Shown here in pieces: positions 4,315-33,545 of a DNA stretch of 34,133 nt. The stretch spans positions 1 through 34,133 of the IMG/VR virus record IMGVR_UViG_3300025168_000309; one strand, given 5' to 3'. Source of the stretch: a virus. How positions within the stretch are numbered: position 1 is the stretch's first letter; the number at the start of each line of letters is the position of its first letter. A model generated the notes under the pieces. That model was not told where the DNA came from and ran no database searches. It saw only the letters and a list, made by a program, of their open reading frames with translations. A program made the translations under genes and the position numbers.

Positions 4315-5727
4315 ATGGCTATAATATTAAGACAGACTAAGGGTTCTGAGTTAACTTTCACCGAGGTTGATGGCAATTTTTCCTCACTTTTATTTGATGT
4401 AGCCCTATCAGGTAATTCTCTTTTATTTTATACTAATAATGGTTCAGATCAATTAAAAAGAACAATTGATTTATCTAATATAGTAAGTTCAAGTCTTATA
4501 GTTAAAAGAAATTCAACAACTGTAGTACCTTCTACTGAAATAATGAATTTTACAGGTACTGGAGTATCTGTTTCACAATCCCCTACAGGTACAGCAGTAA
4601 TTGATATATCTTCTGGTTCAGGAACATCAGGTTCAAGTGGATCTTCAGGTGAAGCTGGTACATCAGGTAGTTCGGGTTCATCAGGAGCAGCAGGTACATC
4701 AGGTTCAAGTGGATCATCAGGAGCAGCAGGTACATCAGGTAGTTCAGGTTCATCAGGAGTAGCAGGTACATCAGGTAGTTCAGGTTCATCAGGAGTAGCA
4801 GGTACATCAGGTTCAAGTGGATCTTCAGGTGTATCCGGTGTGTCCGGTTCATCAGGTTCTTCAGGAACATCAGGTGCAGATACTAGTACTTATACTAATG
4901 CAGTAGCAACACCTATAAATTTTCCAAGTGATGATGATCCTAACATACCAGCAGGAACAACATTTTCAAATAAAACATTTCCAGAAATGATGAATTTAAT
5001 GTTGTATCCAACATTATATCCTTCATTATCTAACCCATCAAGTGGTTTTTCCATTTCACCAGCAAATACTTTCCAAAAAATAGGTGCTACAATAAGTACT
5101 TTAACTTTAAGTGCAACTTTTAATAAAGGAAGCATTAACCCAGCTTATGGAACAAATGGGTTTAGAAGTGGTGATCCAAATCAATATAATTATGGTGGAA
5201 CTGGAGTATCAAATCAAACAAGTACAGCATTAACAAATTCCACAACAACTTCTAATTATGTAATTGTACAAGGAAATCAGTCATGGACAGGAGCTGTTCA
5301 ATTTGACCAAGGTCCACAACCATTAGATAGTTCAGGTGCCAATTTTAGTACCCCATTATCTGCAGGAACTACTAATACAATAACAAGAACAATAAATGGA
5401 GTTTACCCAGTATTTGGTACAACAGTAAGTCTTAATACATCCACAGAATTTTCTTTACAGACAATGACTACACTTATCCAAGCATCTTTAGTAACAGAAT
5501 CTGGGGGTGGAGGTTTAAAACAATATATAGAAGTTCCAAATGCCTGGTCAACTATTACAGGTTTACAACAATTTAATACATTAAGTAATGTTTATGATAC
5601 TATTTTATTAAGTTCATTCACTACATCTTCAGTAACAAAAACAATAGAAGGTCAATCCGTTAATTATACTAAATATACTCATAATGGCGGAACAATAGGG
5701 GCAAGAATATTAAGATTTTTAACATAA
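4315..5727 (+). CDS. Tail fibre protein with Gly-X-Y (collagen-like) segment
   Basis: A 470-aa protein. The N-terminus (ILRQTKGSELTFTEVDGNF) is a common phage fibre anchor phrase. Residues about 101-188 are strict Gly-X-Y triplets, mostly GSS, GTS, GAA and GVA, with no proline. Residues 189-470 form a beta-rich, Ser/Thr/Asn-rich head that may be the tip. The repeat composition matches the giant fibre encoded 4 nt downstream, so the two probably act together or descend from one another. Location is inferred to be the virion surface, as a long fibre segment or its attachment piece. The specific partner is unknown. Confidence 0.85.
   Translation: MAIILRQTKGSELTFTEVDGNFSSLLFDVALSGNSLLFYTNNGSDQLKRTIDLSNIVSSSLIVKRNSTTVVPSTEIMNFTGTGVSVSQSPTGTAVIDISSGSGTSGSSGSSGEAGTSGSSGSSGAAGTSGSSGSSGAAGTSGSSGSSGVAGTSGSSGSSGVAGTSGSSGSSGVSGVSGSSGSSGTSGADTSTYTNAVATPINFPSDDDPNIPAGTTFSNKTFPEMMNLMLYPTLYPSLSNPSSGFSISPANTFQKIGATISTLTLSATFNKGSINPAYGTNGFRSGDPNQYNYGGTGVSNQTSTALTNSTTTSNYVIVQGNQSWTGAVQFDQGPQPLDSSGANFSTPLSAGTTNTITRTINGVYPVFGTTVSLNTSTEFSLQTMTTLIQASLVTESGGGGLKQYIEVPNAWSTITGLQQFNTLSNVYDTILLSSFTTSSVTKTIEGQSVNYTKYTHNGGTIGARILRFLT
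4615..4878 (+). repeat. Gly-X-Y coding repeat of the 470-aa fibre protein
   Basis: 264 nt encoding about 29 Gly-X-Y triplets. The amino acid pattern is regular, but codons vary between copies (GGT/GGA for Gly; TCA, TCT, AGT for Ser), so DNA identity between units is lower than protein identity. Confidence 0.92.
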
Positions 5728-5731
5728 AACT

Positions 5732-8700
5732 ATGGCAAGAGTAAAAGGAACATTAGGTATATCGGCAAATTTCGAACCACAAATAGCGGCAGCATTTGAT
5801 GCTCGTGCAAATGTACCTACAAAAGCAGACTTGATTCTTGCTGCTACTTGGGTAGCATTAGATTCGGGAACTTACGTTTATAACGGTATGACTGTTACTG
5901 TCTCTGAGGATTCAACAGCGGCTAACAATGGTATTTATGTTTTATTAGATACAGCAGAGATAGAAACTGCTGATTTTTCAGGTTGGTTATTTGTAGGATC
6001 GGCAGCAGCTGGTACTTCAGGTAGCTCAGGTAGTTCAGGGGCAGCAGGTTCATCAGGATCTTCAGGTACAAGTGGTTCATCAGGATCTTCAGGTACAAGT
6101 GGTTCTTCAGGATCATCAGGTACATCAGGTTCTTCAGGATCATCCGGTACAAGCGGTTCATCAGGATCTTCAGGTGAATCAGGTACAAGCGGTTCATCAG
6201 GTTCATCAGGAGCAGCTGGTACTTCAGGTAGTTCAGGTTCATCAGGTACATCAGGTAGCTCAGGTTCATCAGGTACATCAGGTAGCTCAGGTTCATCAGG
6301 AGAATCAGGTACTTCAGGATCATCAGGTTCATCAGGTACAAGCGGTTCATCAGGATCATCAGGTACAAGCGGTTCATCAGGATCTTCAGGTACAAGTGGT
6401 TCATCAGGATCTTCAGGTGCTTCAGGTAGCTCAGGTTCATCAGGAGCAGCAGGTACTTCAGGATCATCAGGTTCAAGTGGTACTTCAGGTTCATCAGGAT
6501 CCTCAGGTACATCAGGTAGCTCAGGTTCTTCAGGAGAATCAGGTACATCAGGTTCAAGTGGATCTTCGGGTACATCAGGTTCAAGTGGTTCATCAGGTAC
6601 TTCAGGTTCATCAGGATCTTCAGGGGTTTCAGGTTCTTCAGGATCATCAGGTACATCAGGTTCTTCAGGATCATCAGGTACAAGTGGTTCAAGTGGATCT
6701 TCAGGTGAAGCAGGTACAAGCGGTTCAAGTGGATCTTCAGGAACATCAGGTTCAAGTGGTTCATCAGGTACTTCAGGTCAAGATGGTTCATTTGGTGGTG
6801 CTAGTTTTGATTATGATTTTTCAACAAACACAACAACATCAGACCCAGGATCAGGTAATGTAAAATTAAATAATGCAACTCAAAATGCTGCAACTCGAGT
6901 TTATATAAATGATATAGATTCTGCTGGAAGTGATATTTCAACATTTTTAGCAACATTAGATGCATCCACATCAGCAATAAAAGGTCATATAAGAATATCA
7001 AATAAATTTGATACTAATCAATTTATATTATGGTCTATTACAGGAACAACAGATAATACAGGTTGGTGGGAATTAGTTACAGCAGTAGCAAATTCATCAG
7101 CTACATCACCATTTTCAGATGGTGAAGATGTGCTATGTTCATTTGTTGTAACAGGGGATAAAGGAGATAGTGGTTCATCAGGTTCATCAGGTGTTTCAGG
7201 TAGCTCAGGTTCATCAGGAACTTCAGGTGCAGATGGTTCATCAGGTTCATCAGGAACTTCAGGTGAAACAGGTGGAACAGGTTCAAGTGGTTCATCAGGT
7301 GTTTCAGGTAGCTCAGGTTCATCAGGTACTTCAGGTGCAGACGGATCTTCAGGATCAAGTGGAACTTCAGGTGAAACAGGAGGAACAGGTTCAAGTGGTT
7401 CATCAGGTGTTTCAGGTAGCTCAGGTTCTTCAGGAACTTCAGGAGCAGATGGTTCAAGTGGATCTTCAGGTACTTCAGGTACAGACGGTTCATCAGGATC
7501 AAGCGGTACTTCAGGTGCAGATGGTTCATCAGGTTCATCAGGAACTTCAGGAGCAACTGTTATAGCACCTAATACCTTTTCATATGATTTTCAAACTTCA
7601 ACAGTAGGTGACCCAGGAGGTGGAGAAGTTCAAGGAGATAATAGTACACAAACATCAATAGCTGAATTATTTATTAATTTAGATGATGGTGATGGAAATA
7701 CTATTCCAACTCCAACAGCTCCAGGAATAATAACAATAAGAAAACAATCAAATTCATCAGTATTTATTTCATACCGTTATACTAGTGTTTCTGTAAATTC
7801 TGGTATAGCTACATTTGGCGGTACTGTTACTGCTAGTAGCACAACAAACCCATTTGCTGATAATGATCCAATTTATGTAGGATTTACACTAAGTGGATCA
7901 TCAGGTTCTTCAGGATCTTCAGGTGCTTCAGGTTCAAGTGGATCTTCAGGTACTTCAGGTGCAGATGGTTCAAGTGGTTCATCAGGTACTTCAGGTGCAG
8001 ATGGTTCAAGTGGTTCAAGTGGTACTTCAGGTGCAGATGGTTCAAGTGGTTCAAGTGGTACTTCAGGTGCAGATGGCTCTTCAGGTTCATCAGGAGCAGC
8101 AGGTACATCAGGTTCAAGTGGTTTATTTGGTGGTATTCCTTATAGTTTTTCTACAACAGTAGGAGGAGAAACAGCAGCAGGACAAATAAGACTTAATAAT
8201 GCAGATGCTCAATCTGCAACCCAAGTTCTTATTAGTGATACAGATGCAGAAACTGGTGATCAATCAGATTATTTAGCAACATTAGATGATGCTGGGTTTA
8301 CGGATAATAGGGGTTATTTAATAATACAAGATGCAGATGGTGGTGGAGCAGGTGCTCAATCATTTTCAACATTTATAATAAAATCAATTGCTAGTACTGC
8401 AGATTCACAACATACATTTAATGTTACTTTTGTAGCAGCAACAAATGCAGGAACAGGTAATCCACCATTTAGTGATGCTGATAAAATAGTAATGAATTTT
8501 TCAGCAACTGGTGAAGCAGGTTCTTCAGGATCTTCAGGTGCTTCAGGATCAAGCGGTTCATCAGGAACTTCAGGTGCAGATGGTTCAAGTGGATCAAGTG
8601 GAACTTCAGGTGAAGATGGATCTTCAGGATCATCAGGAACTTCAGGTGCAGATGGGTCTTCAGGTTCATCAGGAACTTCAGGTGCAGATGGTTCAAGTGG

Positions 8701-11700
8701 TTCATCAGGAACTTCAGGTGCAGATGGTTCTAGCGGTTCATCAGGTACATCAGGTATAACAGGTGATCCAGGTTCTTCAGGTTCGAGTGGTACTTCGGGT
8801 GCAGATGGTTCTTCAGGATCTTCAGGTACTTCAGGTAGTTCAGGTTCATCAGGAACTTCAGGTTCTTCGGGAAGTTCAGGTGCTTCAGGATCTTCAGGTT
8901 CGAGTGGTTCATCAGGTGAGTATGGTGGTGTTCCTTATGATTATGGAGGAGTTGCTTCTACAGCTCCAACTTCAGGATTTTGGACTCCAAATAATGCTAC
9001 AGTTAGTAGTATTACAGAAATATATCTTAGTGAAACTAATAACCAAGTTGTTAATGTAATAGATTGGGCTAATTCAGTTTCTACAGGTATAATTTACATT
9101 AAATCAGCTGATGGTTCAGATAATTCAATTTTAACAGCTACAATAGATTCTGTAGATTCAACAAATGTTGGATATGTAATATTTTCAGTAAGTAATCCAT
9201 CAGGTAATACTTTTAGTGAAAATCCTGATGAAGAAGCATGTAATATTATTTTAGTACCAGCAGGACCAAGTGGTGGTGGAGGTTCTTCAGGATCTTCAGG
9301 TGCTTCAGGATCAAGTGGTTCATCAGGAACTTCAGGTGCAGATGGTTCAAGCGGATCTTCAGGTACTTCAGGTGCAGATGGTTCAAGTGGTTCATCAGGA
9401 ACTTCAGGTGCAGATGGATCTTCAGGTTCATCAGGAACTTCAGGTGCAGATGGTTCTTCAGGATCTTCAGGTACTTCAGGTGCAGATGGTTCAAGCGGAT
9501 CTTCAGGTACTTCAGGTACAGATGGCTCTTCAGGTTCATCAGGTTCAAGTGGTTCATCAGGTGAATATGGTGGAGTTCCATATAGATTTAGTGATTCAAC
9601 ATCAGGTGATCCATCTTCAGGAATAGTAAGATTTAATAATGGATCTTTAGCAAGTGTTTCACAAGTAGTATTTAATAGAACTAACTCAGATAGTGTTAGT
9701 GTAGCAGATTGGCTTGACAATTTTACTACAGGAATAATGTACATAAAATCAACTAATGGTGCTGATACATCAATTGCTGTATTTACTACAACAAATAGAT
9801 CATCAGGAGCATCAGTTAACACATATTCAGTTTCAAATGGAGCTGGTTCAATATTTACAGATGAAGAATTTGTTAGTGTAATATTTGCTCCAAAAGGTAA
9901 TGATGGAGAAGGAGGATCTTCAGGTTCTTCAGGTTCTTCAGGTTCTTCAGGAACTTCAGGTACAGATGGTTCAAGTGGATCTTCAGGTACTTCAGGTGCA
10001 GATGGCTCTTCAGGTTCATCAGGAACTTCAGGAGCAGATGGTTCATCAGGATCAAGCGGTACTTCAGGTGCAGATGGTTCTTCAGGATCTTCAGGTACTT
10101 CAGGTGCAGATGGTTCAAGCGGATCTTCAGGTACATCAGGTAGCTCAGGCTCATCAGGAGATTCAGGTTCAAGTGGTTCATCAGGTACTTCAGGTGCAGA
10201 TGGTTCAAGCGGTTCATCAGGTACTTCAGGATCAAGTGGTTCATCAGGTACTTCAGGATCAAGTGGTTCATCAGGTACAAGTGGTACAAACGGAAGATAT
10301 GGTGGGGTTCCTTACAGATTTGATACTTCAACAACATCAACAGGAATATCACAAGGAGAAATAAGATTTAATAATGGTACGTTAGGAAGTGTTACTACAA
10401 TCTTTATTCATAATGAAAATGAAGATGGAGTTAGTATGTCTACTTGGTTAACTGGTATGTCTAGTGCTGGTATTTTATATGTAAAAGCAGCTAATGGTTC
10501 AGATGCATCAATAGGAATATTTAATATTACATCAAGAAGTGTAGGAGCTGCATTTACTACTTTAGGTATAAGTTCTCCTTCAGGACAAACATTTAGTAAT
10601 GGGGAAGCAGTTAATATAATATATGCACCAAAAGGTGGTGAAGGTGAAGCAGGTTCAAGTGGTTCATCAGGTACTTCAGGAGCAGCAGGTTCTTCAGGAT
10701 CATCAGGTACATCAGGTTCTTCAGGATCAAGTGGTACTTCAGGTTCTTCAGGATCAAGTGGTACTTCAGGTGCAGACGGATCTTCAGGATCAAGTGGTAC
10801 TTCAGGTTCATCAGGTTCTTCAGGAACTTCAGGTGCAACAGGAGGATCAGGTTCAAGCGGATCTTCAGGATCTTCAGGTTCATCTGGAGAAGCAGGTTCT
10901 GTTGGAGGAATGTTTATATCAAAATATGACACATCAGTAAATGCAGCACCAACAGACCCAGGAACAGGTGATTGGCAATTAAATGCTGCTTGGGGTGATA
11001 CTCCATCACAATTAAGAATAAATCATACAGCAAAAGATGGTACAAATATTGAAGACTTATTAGAAAGTATTCAAGTACCAGCTATAATGAGAATGACTGA
11101 AAATGATAATCCAGTTGCTTATAAAGTAGTTAGAATAACAGCTGCTTCAGAATTAAATGGATTTATTAATTATACAATTACACAATTAGAATCAGGAGAT
11201 ACTGGAACTAATACTAATGGTTTTTCATTTATATTTTCAGAAAATGGAGAAGATGGTAGTTCAGGTTCATCAGGAGCTTCAGGTTCATCAGGTAGTTCAG
11301 GTACATCAGGTTCATCCGGGTCAAGTGGTTCATCAGGTTCATCAGGAGCATCAGGATCCTCAGGATCAAGTGGTACTTCAGGTGCAACAGGAGGATCAGG
11401 TTCTTCAGGTTCTTCAGGAACTTCAGGTACAGATGGTTCAAGTGGATCTTCAGGTTCATCAGGTGATAGAGGAGGAGTAAGATATCAATTTGTCACAACA
11501 GTTAATTCAGATGGAGAATTTAATTATAATGGTTCCAATACTGTTCAATTTAATAGAGATGATGTAAATAGTGTTGACCAAGGAACATGGTTAAATTCAT
11601 GGAATGATACAGGTGATAGTACAAATGGATTTGGTGTACTTACAGTTCAAAGTGCTGATAGTGGAAATAATGTATTAGTTGCTATAGTAACAGCTGTAAA

Positions 11701-14700
11701 TAATTCAATAGGATTATATTTTCAAGCTACTGTTACAGAATTAACATATGATGCTTTCCAATTAAATGAACAAGTTGTTGTATCATTTGCAGCATTTGGT
11801 AATTCAGGTAGCTCAGGTTCATCAGGAGCATCAGGATCTTCAGGATCAAGTGGTACTTCAGGTTCATCAGGTTCTTCAGGAACATCAGGTGCAGATGGAT
11901 CTTCAGGTTCATCAGGAACTTCAGGTGCAACAGGTGGGACAGGTTCAAGCGGTTCATCAGGTACTTCAGGTGCAGATGGATCTTCAGGATCAAGTGGTAC
12001 TTCAGGTGCAGATGGTTCAAGTGGATCTTCAGGAACTTCAGGTTCATCAGGTTCATCAGGAACATCAGGTTCAAGTGGTTCTTCAGGTTCATCAGGATCC
12101 TCAGGTGCATCAGGTAGCTCAGGTTCATCAGGAACATCAGGTGCAACAGGTGAACCAGGTTCAAGTGGTTCATCAGGAACTTCAGGTTCATCAGGAAGTT
12201 CAGGTACATCAGGTAGCTCAGGTAGCTCAGGTAGCTCAGGATCTTCAGGATCAAGTGGTTCATCCGGAGAATATGGTGGTGTTCCTTATAATTTTAGTAC
12301 AGATACTAGTGGAGACACATCATCAAGCAACATGCGATATAATAACTCTTCTATAGGAAGTGTTACTCAAGTTGTAATGAATAGAGTTAGTAGACAATTA
12401 GCAAATGTTGGAGATTGGTTAGACAATTTCAATAGTGGTATAATGTATGTTAAATCAGCTGATTCTTCAGATACAACAATAAATGTATTCACGGTTACAG
12501 GTGAATCAGGAGCAGCTACACAAAACACATATACAGTATCAAATGGTTCAGGTACATCAGTTCCAACAAATGGAGAGGATGTTTGTGTAATATTCGCTCC
12601 AAAAGGAAATAATGGTGAAGGAGGATCTTCAGGATCAAGTGGTTCATCAGGTTCATCAGGTACTTCAGGTTCATCAGGGAGTTCAGGTACATCAGGTTCA
12701 TCAGGTTCTTCAGGAACTTCAGGTGCAACAGGTGGAACAGGTTCAAGCGGTTCATCAGGTACATCAGGTAGCTCAGGTTCTTCAGGAACATCAGGTTCAA
12801 GTGGTTCTTCAGGTACTTCAGGTAGCTCAGGTTCTTCAGGTACTTCAGGTGCAACAGGAGGATCAGGTTCAAGTGGTTCTTCAGGTACTTCAGGTTCAAG
12901 TGGATCATCAGGTACTTCAGGTTCATCAGGTTCAAGTGGTAATTCAGGTTCATCAGGATCTTCAGGTAGCTCAGGAAGTTCAGGTACAAGTGGTTCATCA
13001 GGATCTTCAGGTTCATCAGGAAGTTCAGGTAGCTCAGGTTCATCAGGAGAATATGGTGGTGTTCCTTATAGATTTAACACTTCTACAGATGCAACACCAG
13101 CTTCAGGAGATGTACAATTTAATGGTAATTTAGGTAGTAATAACAGAGTTTATATTAATAATACCAATGTACAGGGTGTAGGAGTAAGTGGTTTCTTAGA
13201 TAGTATTAACAGTGGTATAATGTATATTAAATCAGCTAATGGTGCTGATACTTCAATAGCTACATTTACAGTTACTGGAGTTACTCAAGCTGCTACAATT
13301 ACTACATATGTGGTATCAAATGGTGATGGAACAGCATTTGCTAATGAAGAAAAGATTAGTGTAATGCTCGCTCCACAAGGAAATAATGGTGAGGGAGGAT
13401 CTTCAGGATCTTCAGGATCAAGTGGTTCATCAGGATCTTCAGGATCTTCAGGTTCAAGCGGATCTTCAGGTGCTTCAGGATCTTCAGGTTCATCAGGAAC
13501 TTCAGGTGCAACAGGTGGAACAGGTTCAAGTGGATCTTCAGGTACATCAGGCTCAAGTGGATCTTCAGGTACATCAGGTAGCTCAGGTTCTTCAGGAACT
13601 TCAGGTGCAACAGGTGGAACAGGTTCAAGTGGTTCATCAGGATCAAGTGGATCTTCAGGATCTTCAGGTACATCAGGTTCATCAGGATCATCAGGTACAT
13701 CAGGTTCATCAGGAAGTTCAGGTACATCAGGTAGCTCAGGTTCTTCAGGAACTTCAGGTGCAACAGGAGGATCAGGTTCATCAGGATCTTCAGGTTCATC
13801 AGGATCATCAGGTACAAGTGGATCTTCAGGTTCAAGTGGTTCATCAGGATCTTCAGGATCAAGTGGTTCATCAGGTCAATATGGTGGTGTCCCATATAAT
13901 TTTTCAACAGCAACTACTGGAACTCCAGTTTCATCCTTTTTACGTTATAATAATGGTACAATAGGAAGTGTTAGTCAAGTTGTAATAAATAGAGTTAGTA
14001 AACAATTAGCAAATGTTGGAGATTGGTTAGACAATTTCAACAGTGGTATAATGTACATTAAATCCCTAGATGGAGCAGATACAACAATAAACGTATTTAC
14101 AGTTACAGGTGAATCAGGTGCAGCAACATCTAACACATATACAGTATCAAATGGTTCAGGTACATCAGTTCCATCAAATGAAGAAGCTATAGCAGTAATA
14201 TTTGCTCCAAAAGGAAATAATGGTGAAGGAGGTTCTTCAGGATCTTCAGGCTCTTCAGGCTCTTCAGGTTCATCAGGTTCTTCAGGTTCTTCAGGAACTT
14301 CAGGTGCAACAGGAGGATCAGGTTCAAGCGGGTCTTCAGGTACAAGTGGTTCATCAGGATCTTCAGGAACATCAGGTGCAACAGGTGGAACAGGTTCAAG
14401 TGGTTCTTCAGGTACTTCAGGTTCAAGTGGATCATCAGGTACTTCAGGATCAAGTGGTTCATCAGGTACTTCAGGTGCAACTGGTGGAACAGGTTCAAGT
14501 GGTTCATCAGGTTCAAGTGGTTCATCAGGATCAAGTGGATCTTCAGGTTCATCAGGATCTTCAGGTGCTTCAGGTAGCTCAGGTTCTTCAGGAACTTCAG
14601 GTGCAACAGGAGGATCAGGTTCAAGCGGGTCTTCAGGTTCATCAGGATCATCAGGTTCAAGTGGTTCATCAGGTAGCTCAGGATCTTCAGGTAGCTCAGG

Positions 14701-16471
14701 TTCATCAGGTTCATCAGGTGAATATGGTGGTGTCCCATATAATTTTTCAACATCAACTTCTGGAACAGTTACATCATCCTTTTTACGTTATAATAATAGC
14801 ACGGTAGGAAGTGTTAGTCAAGTTGTAATAAGTAGATCAAATAAAAATTTAGCTAATGTTGGAGATTGGTTAGACAACTTCAACAGTGGTATAATGTACA
14901 TTAAATCCCTAGATGGAGCAGATACAACAATAAATGTATTCACAGTTTCTGGAGAATCAGGTGCAGCTACTCAAAATACATATACAGTATCAAATGGTTC
15001 TGGAACAGCAAGACCATCAAATGAAGAAGCTATAGCAGTAATATTTGCTCCAAAAGGAAATAATGGTGAAGGAGGATCTTCAGGTTCAAGTGGTTCATCA
15101 GGATCATCAGGATCATCAGGTTCTTCAGGATCATCAGGTTCAAGTGGATCTTCAGGTGCTTCAGGATCAAGTGGTTCTTCAGGAACATCAGGTAATACAG
15201 GAGGATCAGGTTCAAGTGGATCTTCAGGATCTTCAGGATCTTCAGGATCATCAGGATCTTCAGGTGCTTCAGGTAGCTCAGGTTCTTCAGGAACTTCAGG
15301 TGCAACAGGAGGATCAGGTTCAAGTGGATCTTCAGGATCTTCAGGATCTTCAGGTGCTTCAGGTAGCTCAGGTTCTTCAGGAACATCAGGTAATACAGGA
15401 GGATCAGGTTCAAGTGGTTCATCAGGTTCATCAGGTTCTTCAGGAACTTCAGGTAATACAGGAGGATCAGGTTCAAGTGGATCTTCAGGTGCTTCAGGAT
15501 CAAGTGGTTCAAGTGGTACTTCAGGTAATACAGGAGGATCAGGTTCAAGTGGATCTTCAGGATCTTCAGGATCTTCAGGAACTTCAGGTGCAACAGGAGG
15601 ATCAGGTTCAAGTGGATCATCAGGTGCTTCAGGTTCATCAGGATCATCAGGTACTTCAGGTAATACAGGAGGATCAGGTTCAAGTGGATCATCAGGTACG
15701 TCAGGTTTAACAGTAGCAGGTTCTTCAGGTTCTTCAGGTACTTCAGGTAATACAGGAGGATCAGGTTCAAGTGGATCTTCAGGAAATTCAGGTTCATCAG
15801 GATCATCAGGTACTTCAGGTAATACAGGAGGATCAGGTTCAAGTGGATCATCAGGATCAAGTGGTTCAAGTGGTACTTCAGGTAATACAGGAGGATCAGG
15901 TTCATCAGGATCTTCAGGAACTTCAGGAATAGCTAGTATAACAGGATCAACCAATAATGGTATAATGACCTTAAATGGTTCATCACCAAATTTATCAGTA
16001 GAATCAAATTTTAAAATACTTGCAAGTGCAGGATCAATTGATATCACATTTTTAAGTTGTACAGCTACAGGTGCTATTGCATTTAACCATCAACAAGCAG
16101 AAAATGAAGGATCAGGAAATGCTGCTTTAATGGGGAATGGTTCAACAACTCAATATAATGTAATGTATTGGACATCTGGCGGTGTAACATCTTGGGTAAA
16201 TGCTGATAAAGATACTTCAGTTGCAGCAACTGGATTCCTTGCATATGCTTTAGGAACTGATCCTGATGCAGATGGTATGATGTTAAATGGATTTGTATAT
16301 CAAGAAGATCATGGGTTTACTATTGGTGCTCCACTTTATCTTAAAGATAATGGACAAATAAATAATACAGCTCCAACAGCAGCAGGTGATTATGTTAGAA
16401 TTATAGGTTATGCTACTACTACTGATGTATTTTATTTCAATCCAGATAATACATGGGTATTATTAAGTTAA
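5732..16471 (+). CDS. Giant modular Gly-X-Y fibre protein
   Basis: A 3,579-aa fibre protein, nearly a third of the window. Residues 1-93 are a unique N-terminal domain, presumably the virion anchor. Then 13 Gly-X-Y blocks alternate with 12 globular modules of about 110-125 aa. Most modules open with (Y/F)GGVPYxF and contain a GDWLDNFNSGIMYIKS-type core and a FAPKGNNGEGG-type exit. Blocks begin near nt 6011, 7154, 7893, 8514, 9272, 9911, 10640, 11250, 11805, 12620, 13394, 14228 and 15071. Triplets are GSS, GTS, GAD, GAT, GNT and GGS, with essentially no proline. The last ~180 residues (from nt 15926) are a tip of a type common in marine phage fibres: LYLKDNGQI, VRIIGYA, FNPDNTWVLLS. The start is 4 nt after the previous stop, and no late promoter precedes it. 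Reverse-strand open frames across it are by-products of the triplet codons. Receptor binding at a distance is the likely role. Confidence 0.9.
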   Translation: MARVKGTLGISANFEPQIAAAFDARANVPTKADLILAATWVALDSGTYVYNGMTVTVSEDSTAANNGIYVLLDTAEIETADFSGWLFVGSAAAGTSGSSGSSGAAGSSGSSGTSGSSGSSGTSGSSGSSGTSGSSGSSGTSGSSGSSGESGTSGSSGSSGAAGTSGSSGSSGTSGSSGSSGTSGSSGSSGESGTSGSSGSSGTSGSSGSSGTSGSSGSSGTSGSSGSSGASGSSGSSGAAGTSGSSGSSGTSGSSGSSGTSGSSGSSGESGTSGSSGSSGTSGSSGSSGTSGSSGSSGVSGSSGSSGTSGSSGSSGTSGSSGSSGEAGTSGSSGSSGTSGSSGSSGTSGQDGSFGGASFDYDFSTNTTTSDPGSGNVKLNNATQNAATRVYINDIDSAGSDISTFLATLDASTSAIKGHIRISNKFDTNQFILWSITGTTDNTGWWELVTAVANSSATSPFSDGEDVLCSFVVTGDKGDSGSSGSSGVSGSSGSSGTSGADGSSGSSGTSGETGGTGSSGSSGVSGSSGSSGTSGADGSSGSSGTSGETGGTGSSGSSGVSGSSGSSGTSGADGSSGSSGTSGTDGSSGSSGTSGADGSSGSSGTSGATVIAPNTFSYDFQTSTVGDPGGGEVQGDNSTQTSIAELFINLDDGDGNTIPTPTAPGIITIRKQSNSSVFISYRYTSVSVNSGIATFGGTVTASSTTNPFADNDPIYVGFTLSGSSGSSGSSGASGSSGSSGTSGADGSSGSSGTSGADGSSGSSGTSGADGSSGSSGTSGADGSSGSSGAAGTSGSSGLFGGIPYSFSTTVGGETAAGQIRLNNADAQSATQVLISDTDAETGDQSDYLATLDDAGFTDNRGYLIIQDADGGGAGAQSFSTFIIKSIASTADSQHTFNVTFVAATNAGTGNPPFSDADKIVMNFSATGEAGSSGSSGASGSSGSSGTSGADGSSGSSGTSGEDGSSGSSGTSGADGSSGSSGTSGADGSSGSSGTSGADGSSGSSGTSGITGDPGSSGSSGTSGADGSSGSSGTSGSSGSSGTSGSSGSSGASGSSGSSGSSGEYGGVPYDYGGVASTAPTSGFWTPNNATVSSITEIYLSETNNQVVNVIDWANSVSTGIIYIKSADGSDNSILTATIDSVDSTNVGYVIFSVSNPSGNTFSENPDEEACNIILVPAGPSGGGGSSGSSGASGSSGSSGTSGADGSSGSSGTSGADGSSGSSGTSGADGSSGSSGTSGADGSSGSSGTSGADGSSGSSGTSGTDGSSGSSGSSGSSGEYGGVPYRFSDSTSGDPSSGIVRFNNGSLASVSQVVFNRTNSDSVSVADWLDNFTTGIMYIKSTNGADTSIAVFTTTNRSSGASVNTYSVSNGAGSIFTDEEFVSVIFAPKGNDGEGGSSGSSGSSGSSGTSGTDGSSGSSGTSGADGSSGSSGTSGADGSSGSSGTSGADGSSGSSGTSGADGSSGSSGTSGSSGSSGDSGSSGSSGTSGADGSSGSSGTSGSSGSSGTSGSSGSSGTSGTNGRYGGVPYRFDTSTTSTGISQGEIRFNNGTLGSVTTIFIHNENEDGVSMSTWLTGMSSAGILYVKAANGSDASIGIFNITSRSVGAAFTTLGISSPSGQTFSNGEAVNIIYAPKGGEGEAGSSGSSGTSGAAGSSGSSGTSGSSGSSGTSGSSGSSGTSGADGSSGSSGTSGSSGSSGTSGATGGSGSSGSSGSSGSSGEAGSVGGMFISKYDTSVNAAPTDPGTGDWQLNAAWGDTPSQLRINHTAKDGTNIEDLLESIQVPAIMRMTENDNPVAYKVVRITAASELNGFINYTITQLESGDTGTNTNGFSFIFSENGEDGSSGSSGASGSSGSSGTSGSSGSSGSSGSSGASGSSGSSGTSGATGGSGSSGSSGTSGTDGSSGSSGSSGDRGGVRYQFVTTVNSDGEFNYNGSNTVQFNRDDVNSVDQGTWLNSWNDTGDSTNGFGVLTVQSADSGNNVLVAIVTAVNNSIGLYFQATVTELTYDAFQLNEQVVVSFAAFGNSGSSGSSGASGSSGSSGTSGSSGSSGTSGADGSSGSSGTSGATGGTGSSGSSGTSGADGSSGSSGTSGADGSSGSSGTSGSSGSSGTSGSSGSSGSSGSSGASGSSGSSGTSGATGEPGSSGSSGTSGSSGSSGTSGSSGSSGSSGSSGSSGSSGEYGGVPYNFSTDTSGDTSSSNMRYNNSSIGSVTQVVMNRVSRQLANVGDWLDNFNSGIMYVKSADSSDTTINVFTVTGESGAATQNTYTVSNGSGTSVPTNGEDVCVIFAPKGNNGEGGSSGSSGSSGSSGTSGSSGSSGTSGSSGSSGTSGATGGTGSSGSSGTSGSSGSSGTSGSSGSSGTSGSSGSSGTSGATGGSGSSGSSGTSGSSGSSGTSGSSGSSGNSGSSGSSGSSGSSGTSGSSGSSGSSGSSGSSGSSGEYGGVPYRFNTSTDATPASGDVQFNGNLGSNNRVYINNTNVQGVGVSGFLDSINSGIMYIKSANGADTSIATFTVTGVTQAATITTYVVSNGDGTAFANEEKISVMLAPQGNNGEGGSSGSSGSSGSSGSSGSSGSSGSSGASGSSGSSGTSGATGGTGSSGSSGTSGSSGSSGTSGSSGSSGTSGATGGTGSSGSSGSSGSSGSSGTSGSSGSSGTSGSSGSSGTSGSSGSSGTSGATGGSGSSGSSGSSGSSGTSGSSGSSGSSGSSGSSGSSGQYGGVPYNFSTATTGTPVSSFLRYNNGTIGSVSQVVINRVSKQLANVGDWLDNFNSGIMYIKSLDGADTTINVFTVTGESGAATSNTYTVSNGSGTSVPSNEEAIAVIFAPKGNNGEGGSSGSSGSSGSSGSSGSSGSSGTSGATGGSGSSGSSGTSGSSGSSGTSGATGGTGSSGSSGTSGSSGSSGTSGSSGSSGTSGATGGTGSSGSSGSSGSSGSSGSSGSSGSSGASGSSGSSGTSGATGGSGSSGSSGSSGSSGSSGSSGSSGSSGSSGSSGSSGEYGGVPYNFSTSTSGTVTSSFLRYNNSTVGSVSQVVISRSNKNLANVGDWLDNFNSGIMYIKSLDGADTTINVFTVSGESGAATQNTYTVSNGSGTARPSNEEAIAVIFAPKGNNGEGGSSGSSGSSGSSGSSGSSGSSGSSGSSGASGSSGSSGTSGNTGGSGSSGSSGSSGSSGSSGSSGASGSSGSSGTSGATGGSGSSGSSGSSGSSGASGSSGSSGTSGNTGGSGSSGSSGSSGSSGTSGNTGGSGSSGSSGASGSSGSSGTSGNTGGSGSSGSSGSSGSSGTSGATGGSGSSGSSGASGSSGSSGTSGNTGGSGSSGSSGTSGLTVAGSSGSSGTSGNTGGSGSSGSSGNSGSSGSSGTSGNTGGSGSSGSSGSSGSSGTSGNTGGSGSSGSSGTSGIASITGSTNNGIMTLNGSSPNLSVESNFKILASAGSIDITFLSCTATGAIAFNHQQAENEGSGNAALMGNGSTTQYNVMYWTSGGVTSWVNADKDTSVAATGFLAYALGTDPDADGMMLNGFVYQEDHGFTIGAPLYLKDNGQINNTAPTAAGDYVRIIGYATTTDVFYFNPDNTWVLLS
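12266..12619 (+). repeat. Fibre globular module 9 (near-duplicate of modules 11 and 12)
   Basis: A 354-nt, 118-aa module starting at GEYGGVPYNFST. Its core (QLANVGDWLDNFNSGIMY) and exit are almost the same as in the modules at 13874 and 14717, while other modules are clearly diverged. This indicates duplication or gene conversion within the gene. Confidence 0.8.
13874..14227 (+). repeat. Fibre globular module 11 (near-duplicate)
   Basis: The same length, 354 nt, as modules 9 and 12. It shares long DNA stretches with module 12, including the segment around GTGGTATAATGTACATTAAA and the LDGADTTINVFTV coding run. It starts with GQYGGVPYNF. Confidence 0.8.
14717..15070 (+). repeat. Fibre globular module 12 (near-duplicate)
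   Basis: 354 nt. Shares SSFLRYNN and the LDGADTTINVFTV core with module 11 and differs mainly in its first 45 codons (STSTSGTV; SRSNKNLANVGDWL). It is followed by the longest Gly-X-Y block. Confidence 0.8.
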
Positions 16472-16480
16472 TATAAAAAT

Positions 16481-17047
16481 ATGGTATATATATCTCAAAA
16501 TTTAGAATTTAATGAAAATAAAATAATATATACAGATGCAGTTATAGGTGTTGAATGGGAAGTTATGATGGATTGGGAAGACACTTTAATGTCAGCTTCA
16601 GCAGCTTATATATGTGAAGGAGGGGGTGATATTCTTGAAATAGGATTTGGAATGGCTATATCAGCTACATATATTCAATCACATACAATTAATTCACACA
16701 CTATTATAGAAAACCACCCAGATATGATTCCAAAAGCTCAAGCATGGGCTGCAGATAAATCTAATGTAATTATAGTAGAAGGTAGTTGGCATGATGTAAA
16801 AGATACATTAAGTACTTATGATGGTTTATTTATGGATACTTATGGTGATCAAGATATGGATAAATTTTCTACAGTTTTACCATCATTAATGAAAGCAGGG
16901 GGAAAAGCAACATGGTGGAATTCAATGACAGGATCAGAAAATTACTATGGTATTTCAGATGTAACGTATGACGTATATGACGTTAACCCACCATTAAATA
17001 GTTATTTTAATTATAACCAATATTATTTACCTAAAAAACAATTTTAA
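16481..17047 (+). CDS. SAM-dependent guanidino/arginine N-methyltransferase (GAMT/RMT2-like)
   Basis: A 188-aa class I methyltransferase. Residues 51-58 (ILEIGFGM) are motif I for S-adenosylmethionine. HTIIENHPDM (73-82) supplies the acidic residue after strand 2. VIIVEGSWHDV (96-106) and YDGLFMDTYGD (113-123) follow in the order of guanidinoacetate methyltransferase (VLEVGFGMAI, WIIE, GLWEDV, GILYDTYP) and of the fungal arginine methyltransferase RMT2. The upstream MMDWEDTLM keeps the Glu (E33) and the DTY keeps the Asp (D119) that in GAMT bind and deprotonate the guanidino group, so catalysis looks possible. It is shorter than GAMT (about 236 aa). It starts 10 nt after the giant fibre gene and 4 nt before the next fibre gene, inside one operon. 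The substrate is unknown: an arginine on a virion protein, or a host guanidino metabolite. Confidence 0.82.
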   Translation: MVYISQNLEFNENKIIYTDAVIGVEWEVMMDWEDTLMSASAAYICEGGGDILEIGFGMAISATYIQSHTINSHTIIENHPDMIPKAQAWAADKSNVIIVEGSWHDVKDTLSTYDGLFMDTYGDQDMDKFSTVLPSLMKAGGKATWWNSMTGSENYYGISDVTYDVYDVNPPLNSYFNYNQYYLPKKQF

Positions 17048-17050
17048 GCT

Positions 17051-17758
17051 ATGCCTAATATATATTGGTCGAAAAATGCAATTGCTTCAATTGGTCCCTC
17101 TGGACAGAGTAGTTATTCAGGTGCTAGAGAAGCAGCAGAAGATAGCTCTAATACTACTAATACAACAAGTACTAATGCCATAGTTTCTGGTTTTATTAGA
17201 ACTTCATCTAGAGGTGGTGCGGCTTTTGGTTTTAGAAGATCATATTGGGGATTTGATTTTACAGGATATACTGAGGGAACAATATCAAATTTAAAATTTA
17301 ATTTCAAACCCTCAACTGGTTCAACTGGAACTTTAAGTAATAGATTAGCACAATTTAATGGATTTGGAACAGAAGTTGGTAGTAATTATAGTACTGGTGA
17401 TTGGTGGGATAGTATTGAAAACCCTTTAGTACCTTATAGTAATGCTTTTAATTCACCAGATAGTACTACTGTTCAAGCTATTACTTTAAATTCTACAGCA
17501 ATAACCGATGCTGGGACTGATGGATTTTTAAAATTAGTTTTAATGAACACTGGAGATTATAATGGTATAGCTGTAGGAGTTGATCAAAGTAATATAACAA
17601 ATTGGAATGTAGGAAATAATTCAACAGGTAACATTTATTTATCATTTGATTATGAAGCACCAGGTTATGGTAATAAAGTTAACTCTATTTTACCAGCTAA
17701 CGTTTCTCAGATAAATGGAATTTCAAACTCTAATATATCACAAGTAATAGGAGTATAA
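17051..17758 (+). CDS. Probable fibre tip / adhesin with DNRLRE-like beta domain
   Basis: A 235-aa protein beginning 4 nt after the methyltransferase. Residues about 50-200 read as one beta-sandwich domain: RRSYWGFDFTGYTEGTISNLKFNF is similar in form to the 'R..l.FDls.ip.gatI..A.L.f' opening of DNRLRE/carbohydrate-binding-like domains. The C-terminus is a short repeat (NKVNSILPANVSQINGISNSNISQVIGV region) of the kind seen at the ends of flavobacterial phage fibre proteins. No signal peptide. I infer a receptor-binding or fibre-associated role from fold hints and from its place at the end of the fibre operon. The family is not established. Confidence 0.75.
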   Translation: MPNIYWSKNAIASIGPSGQSSYSGAREAAEDSSNTTNTTSTNAIVSGFIRTSSRGGAAFGFRRSYWGFDFTGYTEGTISNLKFNFKPSTGSTGTLSNRLAQFNGFGTEVGSNYSTGDWWDSIENPLVPYSNAFNSPDSTTVQAITLNSTAITDAGTDGFLKLVLMNTGDYNGIAVGVDQSNITNWNVGNNSTGNIYLSFDYEAPGYGNKVNSILPANVSQINGISNSNISQVIGV

Positions 17759-32285: not shown

Positions 32286-33545
32286 ATGTTTTGGTTAGTT
32301 GAAGATGATAAGCAGTTAGAGTTATTTAAGAATTATGTTAGGGAAGAAGCCTTTGTTGAAATAATTCCATATAATAATTTAGAGCATCCTACAAAAAGTG
32401 GTATTTGTGCTGTTTATGTTCGTCCGTTAAATGCCGCAAAAGGGTTTATATTGACAAACGACCATAGCGAAACGTTAAATGTTGGTATAGACGCTATAAA
32501 ATGCGTGTTAAACACATTAGACAAGGTGTATGTACGTGATAAGAAGAGTTTTTTACATTATTTAATATTACAAAAGCTTTTTGACATCACATTAACAACG
32601 CCTACGTATATACCAGAACCAACTAAAACACATAATTATTTTTATAGTAAATATCCCAATAAGGAGGATATAAATAGAATAATACCAATTGTTAAACATT
32701 ATGAATATTGTGAAAATATATTTAACGATTTAAAAGATAAAATAAATGAGCCAATCAACGAGTTTTACAATACAAAAGCCACAGTGGTTTTCAACGCCAT
32801 GGAGCGAAGTGGTATACGAATTAATAGAGACGAATTCAAATCGCACTTTTATGATGAGCGTAACGAATACGTATACACGCAGTACAACTTTAAAACACTA
32901 ACAACTAGACCCTCAAATAAATTCAATGGAGTTAATTACGCAGCACTTAACAAAGATAATGGATGTAGGAAGAGTTTCATTCCACGTAACGATAAGTTTA
33001 TTGAGTTGGATATTGGTGCTTATCATCCTACTCTTCTTGGGTTGTTGGTTGGCTATGATTTTGGTGATGAAGATATTCACAAAGCCTTTGCGAAGATGTA
33101 TGGAGTGGATTACCACAAATCTAAAGAGTTAACATTTAAACAACTATACGGAGGAGTATTTGAACAGTTTAAAGATCTGGAATTTTTTCAAAGAGTACAA
33201 ATATATGTAGATGATTTGTGGTTGAAATTTAATGAAAAAGGCTGGATAGAGTGTCCTGTTTCAAAGCATGTGTATAAAAAAGACGCTTTAAACGACATGA
33301 AACCTCAAAAATTATTGAATTATGTTCTTCAAAACTTGGAGACCGCAATGAATGTTCGTATATTGTGGGATATATTTAAATCATTAAGAAACCGGAAAAC
33401 TGAGCTAGTCTTATATACTTATGATTCGTTTTTGTTTGATTTTGATGAAGGGGAAGAAGATTTGATTGATGAAATTAAACAAATAATAAAAAAATATAAA
33501 TTACAAATAAAAGAAAGTTATGGAAGCAACTACGATTTTAGATAA
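32286..33545 (+). CDS. Compact divergent family-A DNA polymerase
   Basis: A 419-aa protein with the family-A order. AMERSGIRINRDEF (171-184) is the usual 'ME..Gi.vd' phrase. RPSNKFNGVNYAAL (208-221) and RKSFIP (228-233) stand before motif A, ELDIGAYHPTLLGLL (240-254, Asp242), with EDIHKAFAKMYGV. Motif B is K280 followed seven residues later by YG (288-289), but the usual Arg four before the Lys is Tyr276. QNLETAMNVRI follows. Motif C is TYDSFL (378-383): the catalytic Asp380 is kept, while the flanking His and Glu of the usual HDE are Tyr and Ser. Only about 36 residues separate the ME phrase from RPSN, so the thumb is small. No 3'-5' exonuclease acidic motif is visible in residues 1-165. T4 itself uses a family-B polymerase. 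Confidence 0.78.
   Translation: MFWLVEDDKQLELFKNYVREEAFVEIIPYNNLEHPTKSGICAVYVRPLNAAKGFILTNDHSETLNVGIDAIKCVLNTLDKVYVRDKKSFLHYLILQKLFDITLTTPTYIPEPTKTHNYFYSKYPNKEDINRIIPIVKHYEYCENIFNDLKDKINEPINEFYNTKATVVFNAMERSGIRINRDEFKSHFYDERNEYVYTQYNFKTLTTRPSNKFNGVNYAALNKDNGCRKSFIPRNDKFIELDIGAYHPTLLGLLVGYDFGDEDIHKAFAKMYGVDYHKSKELTFKQLYGGVFEQFKDLEFFQRVQIYVDDLWLKFNEKGWIECPVSKHVYKKDALNDMKPQKLLNYVLQNLETAMNVRILWDIFKSLRNRKTELVLYTYDSFLFDFDEGEEDLIDEIKQIIKKYKLQIKESYGSNYDFR

Follow-up and report, generated by a model that had tools for sequence, protein, structure and literature searches.

A small gene in the tail operon of an uncultured phage encodes a putatively SAM-dependent methyltransferase that belongs, by sequence and fold, to the family of guanidinoacetate methyltransferase (GAMT). 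The enzyme and its phage relatives have a conserved pocket and SAM site and a recurrent place in the gene order, and their presence covaries with arginine at residue 54 of the protein encoded directly downstream, a putative fibre tip. It is probable that this phage-encoded enzyme is a dedicated protein arginine methyltransferase (PRMT) of the tail, acting on tip Arg54. The odds lean slightly towards a wider reading, in which a PRMT derived from a creatine enzyme modifies one GRGG arginine of the tip throughout a widespread tailed-phage lineage, and loss of the enzyme, or of its Asp, leads to Lys at that site. If true, phage protein methylation gains a dedicated enzyme and a single predicted residue, a GAMT-derived lineage joins the protein arginine methyltransferases, and common marine phages turn out to mature a putative host-recognition tip by a chemical step. 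Natural variants with the enzyme, without it, and with a D119N substitution are on hand for testing.

The locus and its gene order

The window, that is, the whole stretch of 34,133 nucleotides analysed, is a 34-kb fragment taken from the record of an uncultured virus (IMGVR_UViG_3300025168_000309). Judged by sequence, the source virus is a T4-like myovirus, because its tail sheath is closest to that of Flavobacterium phage immuto (best match, 51%). The host, as inferred, is possibly a member of the Bacteroidota, and one cassette-bearing contig (L106) lies within a Flavobacteriales MAG. The locus comprises the following features.

5732–16471, plus strand: gene of the giant tail fibre, a collagen-like protein of 3579 aa with GSS/TSG repeats and interspersed beta modules (open reading frame; the adjacent collagen-like gene, 4315–5727, matches PHROG tail fibres)
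16127–16468, plus strand: C-terminal fibre domain (..vRiiGy....yFnPdntwve), common to most fibres upstream of the enzyme (alignment of fibre ends)
16481–17047, plus strand: GAMT-family methyltransferase, 188 aa, no Arg (open reading frame, sequence search, structure model)
16577–16579, plus strand: codon of E33, aligned with rat GAMT Glu45 (GAMT alignment; kept in 106/106)
16835–16837, plus strand: codon of D119, aligned with Asp134 of rat GAMT, which accepts the proton in catalysis (GAMT alignment; kept in 110/112)
17051–17758, plus strand: putative fibre-tip protein, 235 aa, with a CBM96-like N-terminal half and ANIxKVxGV-type C-terminal repeats; proposed substrate (behind the enzyme in 81/81 loci; family A4)
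17210–17212, plus strand: AGA codon for Arg54 of the tip, within SSRGGAA; candidate site of methylation (R in 114/115 with the enzyme, K in 40/42 without)

The methyltransferase frame begins with ATG and contains MMDWEDTLM, ILEIGFGM and FMDTYGD, with E33 and D119 where a preliminary description, made from the window alone, had placed them. The tight packing of the genes reported there also stands, although the spacing is 9 nt from fibre to enzyme and 3 nt from enzyme to tip gene, not 10 and 4 nt. Within the giant fibre, GSSGSSGTSG runs separate repeated beta modules, and there are 33 Arg in all 3579 aa. Elsewhere in the window, a 419-aa frame (32286–33545) includes a DNA-polymerase-A-like YDSFLFD stretch and has no Pfam match at E 0.01.

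Relatives of the enzyme occur on at least 384 IMG/VR contigs, and the carriers are hundreds of uncultured phages, mostly marine. Among 50,697 records of deposited phages, one encodes a relative: an unannotated 634-kb phage, whose enzyme has 44% identity. There the gene is the last in a run of fibre-like genes and the tip gene does not follow it; because the tip gene is not adjacent, this enzyme must have another target. The order fibre–methyltransferase–tip, noticed at a single locus in the preliminary description, recurs widely. The tip family lies directly downstream of the enzyme in all 81 loci examined (some of them near-duplicates), and a fibre with the common C-terminal domain lies upstream in 58 of the 75 loci that have enough upstream sequence; some of the enzyme loci have different upstream fibre ends. 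Gaps between enzyme and tip gene span -19 to +5 nt, and those in the cassette as a whole -19 to about +20 nt. Both the tip and the fibre domain are also found without the enzyme, which is therefore the dispensable member of the cassette.

Proteins of the tip family are about 230 aa long and have CBM96 matches below the curated cut-off; searches of Pfam, PHROG and PDB gave no significant match to the family, and no relatives were found among cultured phages. Sequences in the family alignment (A4) were too divergent for it to be used in scanning the collection. A role as a receptor-contacting adhesin is plausible from gene position and the weak resemblance to CBM96, and the earlier label 'fibre-tip-like' is likewise plausible, its backing being the sub-threshold CBM96 matches.

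A methyltransferase of the GAMT family

In a phmmer search of the PDB, the 188-aa enzyme matched four GAMT sequences at E values of 1e-15 to 6e-15 (human GAMT, 1.1e-15), and the next match was at 0.15. A 14-member profile matched GAMT at 1.3e-21. The similarity is far beyond chance, given the gap between these four matches and the next, the profile result and the 384 contigs. The enzyme passed the cut-off of no family in Pfam, PHROGs or NCBIfam. In UniProt, some phage homologues already carry the name putative GAMT.

The fold agrees with the sequence matches. An AlphaFold2 model built on 41 natural sequences (pLDDT 94.8), which replaced an unusable single-sequence model (pLDDT 30), matched GAMT chains at Z scores of 23.4, 23.3 and 21.2, the two highest being human and rat GAMT and the best running over 182 residues at about 2.1 Å and 29% identity; the next family scored 16.1. 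Foldseek likewise matched GAMT (E 3e-15). The GAMT-type identity proposed from motifs in the preliminary description is thus upheld by the best sequence match and the best structural match alike. The yeast enzyme Rmt2 is related to GAMT and has an N-terminal extension. The phage model aligns with GAMT over its whole length (residues 1–188), with no extra domain, and so lacks the Rmt2-type architecture. Classical PRMTs (Hmt1/PRMT1 type), whose catalytic core comes with a beta-barrel, are absent among the structural matches listed, an absence that does not amount to exclusion. The C-terminal tail (YFNxxxYYLPKKQF) was considered as a phage-specific addition, an idea that was dropped: a homologous last strand exists in GAMT and in bacterial relatives, and the model reaches residue 188.

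The Glu/Asp pair that handles the guanidino group, which the preliminary description had recognised, is present by alignment with GAMT: E33 corresponds to rat Glu45 and D119 to rat Asp134, which takes up the proton during GAMT catalysis (PMC12471008). Among readable phage homologues, E33 is kept in 106 of 106 and D119 in 110 of 112, and none of the SAM-binding residues E53, G55, G57 and E77 varies in any of them. In related bacterial enzymes from NRPS clusters, His replaces the Asp (HTYP); because these relatives have lost the Asp, its retention in phages is informative. D119N occurs in one phage lineage (L015/L016), seen in two metagenomes.

The phage enzymes are also depleted in arginine, with a mean of 0.55% Arg and 5.2% Lys. 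Arginine makes up 4.6% of bacterial homologues, 3.1% of the phages' sheath and 2.6% of the tips, and the enzyme of the 634-kb phage has none. Such avoidance would suit an enzyme that has to spare itself from modification, or whose own exposed arginines would compete, and it could have other causes.

Tip residue 54 and the presence of the enzyme

Where the enzyme gene lies directly upstream, residue 54 of the tip, in GRGG, is Arg in 114 of 115 tips; among alignable tips that lack the enzyme, the residue is Lys in 40 of 42. Excluded from these counts are L253, which resisted alignment, and five tips truncated at contig ends. The sole lineage with both enzyme and Lys54 is L015/L016, the one that carries D119N, and the pairing is repeated in two metagenomes. 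Its homologues (L015, 3728–4330; L016/L320, 524–1126) also have a 13-residue insert. The nearest relatives of the D119N tip, L157 and L169, have Lys54 and no enzyme, and the lineage looks like a switch caught midway; its enzyme may be dead or retuned to lysine. Two enzyme-free tips keep Arg54, on contigs of 4.5 kb (L187) and 50 kb (L247). The enzyme is missing beside the tips of L233 (1344–2021) and L247 (minus strand), which follow a different fibre end (..YGVATLDFQF); one has Lys in the motif and the other Arg.

In a column scan of the tip, residue 54 scored highest in separating the two groups (0.94, against 0.82 for the runner-up), and it was the only column right in all four local contrasts of near relatives, contrasts chosen after the tree was seen. 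Nine residues further on, R63 is Arg with and without the enzyme and therefore looks structural. The enzyme was not found elsewhere in the 42 enzyme-free records, in a search that detected two positive controls. Since all records are fragments, absence from a record is not absence from a genome, and the enzyme could lie elsewhere in those genomes.

The association is strong by count (Fisher test, p 4e-28 at 90% dereplication). At 50% dereplication, 47 Arg to 1 Lys with the enzyme compares with 2 Arg to 7 Lys without it (Fisher p 1e-6). It is also clustered on the tip tree, which was built without the motif columns and has seven changes of enzyme state and five of R/K. A Pagel-type comparison of dependent with independent evolution, known as liberal when changes are few, gave a likelihood ratio of 34 (p 7e-7), or 39 if D119N is counted as non-functional. 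Of five supported independent pairs, two were concordant, none opposite and three uninformative; with D119N as non-functional, the figures are three, none and two, too few pairs for a sign test to reach 0.05.

Proposed mechanism, alternatives and known systems

In the mechanism proposed, enzyme, fibre and tip would be made together from one closely packed gene run. SAM would be bound through ILEIGFGM and E77, and the guanidinium held between E33 and D119. Methylation would fall on Arg54, within a glycine-rich tip loop (GRGG), on one of its nitrogens and before or during fibre assembly; transfer, acceptor, nitrogen and timing are what we infer. The benefit might be, for example, protease resistance or a finer adjustment of how the tip meets the host surface.

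Covariation of D119 with R54 is equally expected if the enzyme only docks. Phages often set fibre-assembly helpers beside the fibre gene, and the protein might be a dedicated assembly partner (chaperone or cap) whose former guanidinium pocket holds tip Arg54 with no methyl transfer. This is unlikely, as docking has no need of the SAM residues E53, G55, G57 and E77, which are invariant. It is distinctly unlikely that the enzyme acts like a true GAMT on a small host guanidino metabolite (guanidinoacetate, arginine or similar), its place in the fibre operon being incidental. The closest characterised relatives are indeed creatine-forming GAMTs, the pocket residues are those of GAMT, and UniProt labels one marine-phage homologue 'putative guanidinoacetate methyltransferase'; however, such a role predicts neither the exchange of Arg54 for Lys nor D119N together with Lys, and it sits poorly with the fixed position ahead of the tip gene in 81/81 loci and with a second, distant lineage also found right behind a fibre-like gene.

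The preliminary description had favoured methylation of a virion protein, the fibre or a neighbour. A virion target is retained, given the covariation with R54 and the conserved order, with the tip in place of the fibre itself; for a protein arginine as the acceptor, the covariation is indirect support. The fibre gene lies directly upstream in most loci, its C-terminal domain, also found in the tail fibre of Flavobacterium phage immuto, has an invariant Arg in the vRiiGy segment (codon 16397–16399), and the clustering on the tip tree would suit a correlation with R54 that reflects tip lineages only. Yet that Arg is found in 100% of these fibre domains, whether the enzyme is encoded or not, and it was rejected as the target because its conservation is independent of the enzyme. 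The other upstream fibre ends at some enzyme loci, and the nested switches inside tip clades (L233/L235 versus L262–L264; L175/L306; L313), likewise make a fibre target very unlikely.

No phage-encoded protein arginine methyltransferase was found in a literature search. Methyl-Arg and methyl-Lys on structural proteins, including a tail fibre, were first reported in 2026 for Cellulophaga phages, where they are ascribed to host enzymes; no methyltransferase gene is known from those phages (PMC13288928). Arginine methylation of a virion protein, reported there without a known phage enzyme, is predicted here with one. The nearest functional analogue is yeast Rmt2, a type IV PRMT that forms delta-N methylarginine on Arg67 of Rpl12 (PMC3365026). 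Compared by description only, the two are alike in the proposed chemistry, at one arginine of one partner protein, while Rmt2 is a larger enzyme of fungi and plants and the phage enzyme's proposed target is a virion tip. Human and rat GAMT (PDB 3ORH, 1XCJ) share with the phage enzyme the whole fold, the SAM motif, the WE Glu, the DTY Asp and the C-terminal PPxNxY..yyxP strand; the phage enzyme is about 40 residues shorter, Arg-poor and always in a phage tail operon, and its substrate is only proposed.

Bacterial GAMT-like enzymes of NRPS clusters (e.g. L109, L113, L119) have the same domain at about 30% identity, but are 262 aa long or NRPS-fused, with HTYP for DTYG and normal Arg content. Such HTYP (versus DTYP) enzymes, in L109, L112, L113, L116, L119 and similar bacterial loci, stand alone between NRPS genes or are fused in them, in Flavobacteriia and other phyla, and their substrate appears to be undescribed. 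At four phage loci (L027, L031, L034, L020), glycosyltransferases (Glycos_transf_1) lie 3' of the tip gene, which suggests that fibre or tip is modified in additional ways.
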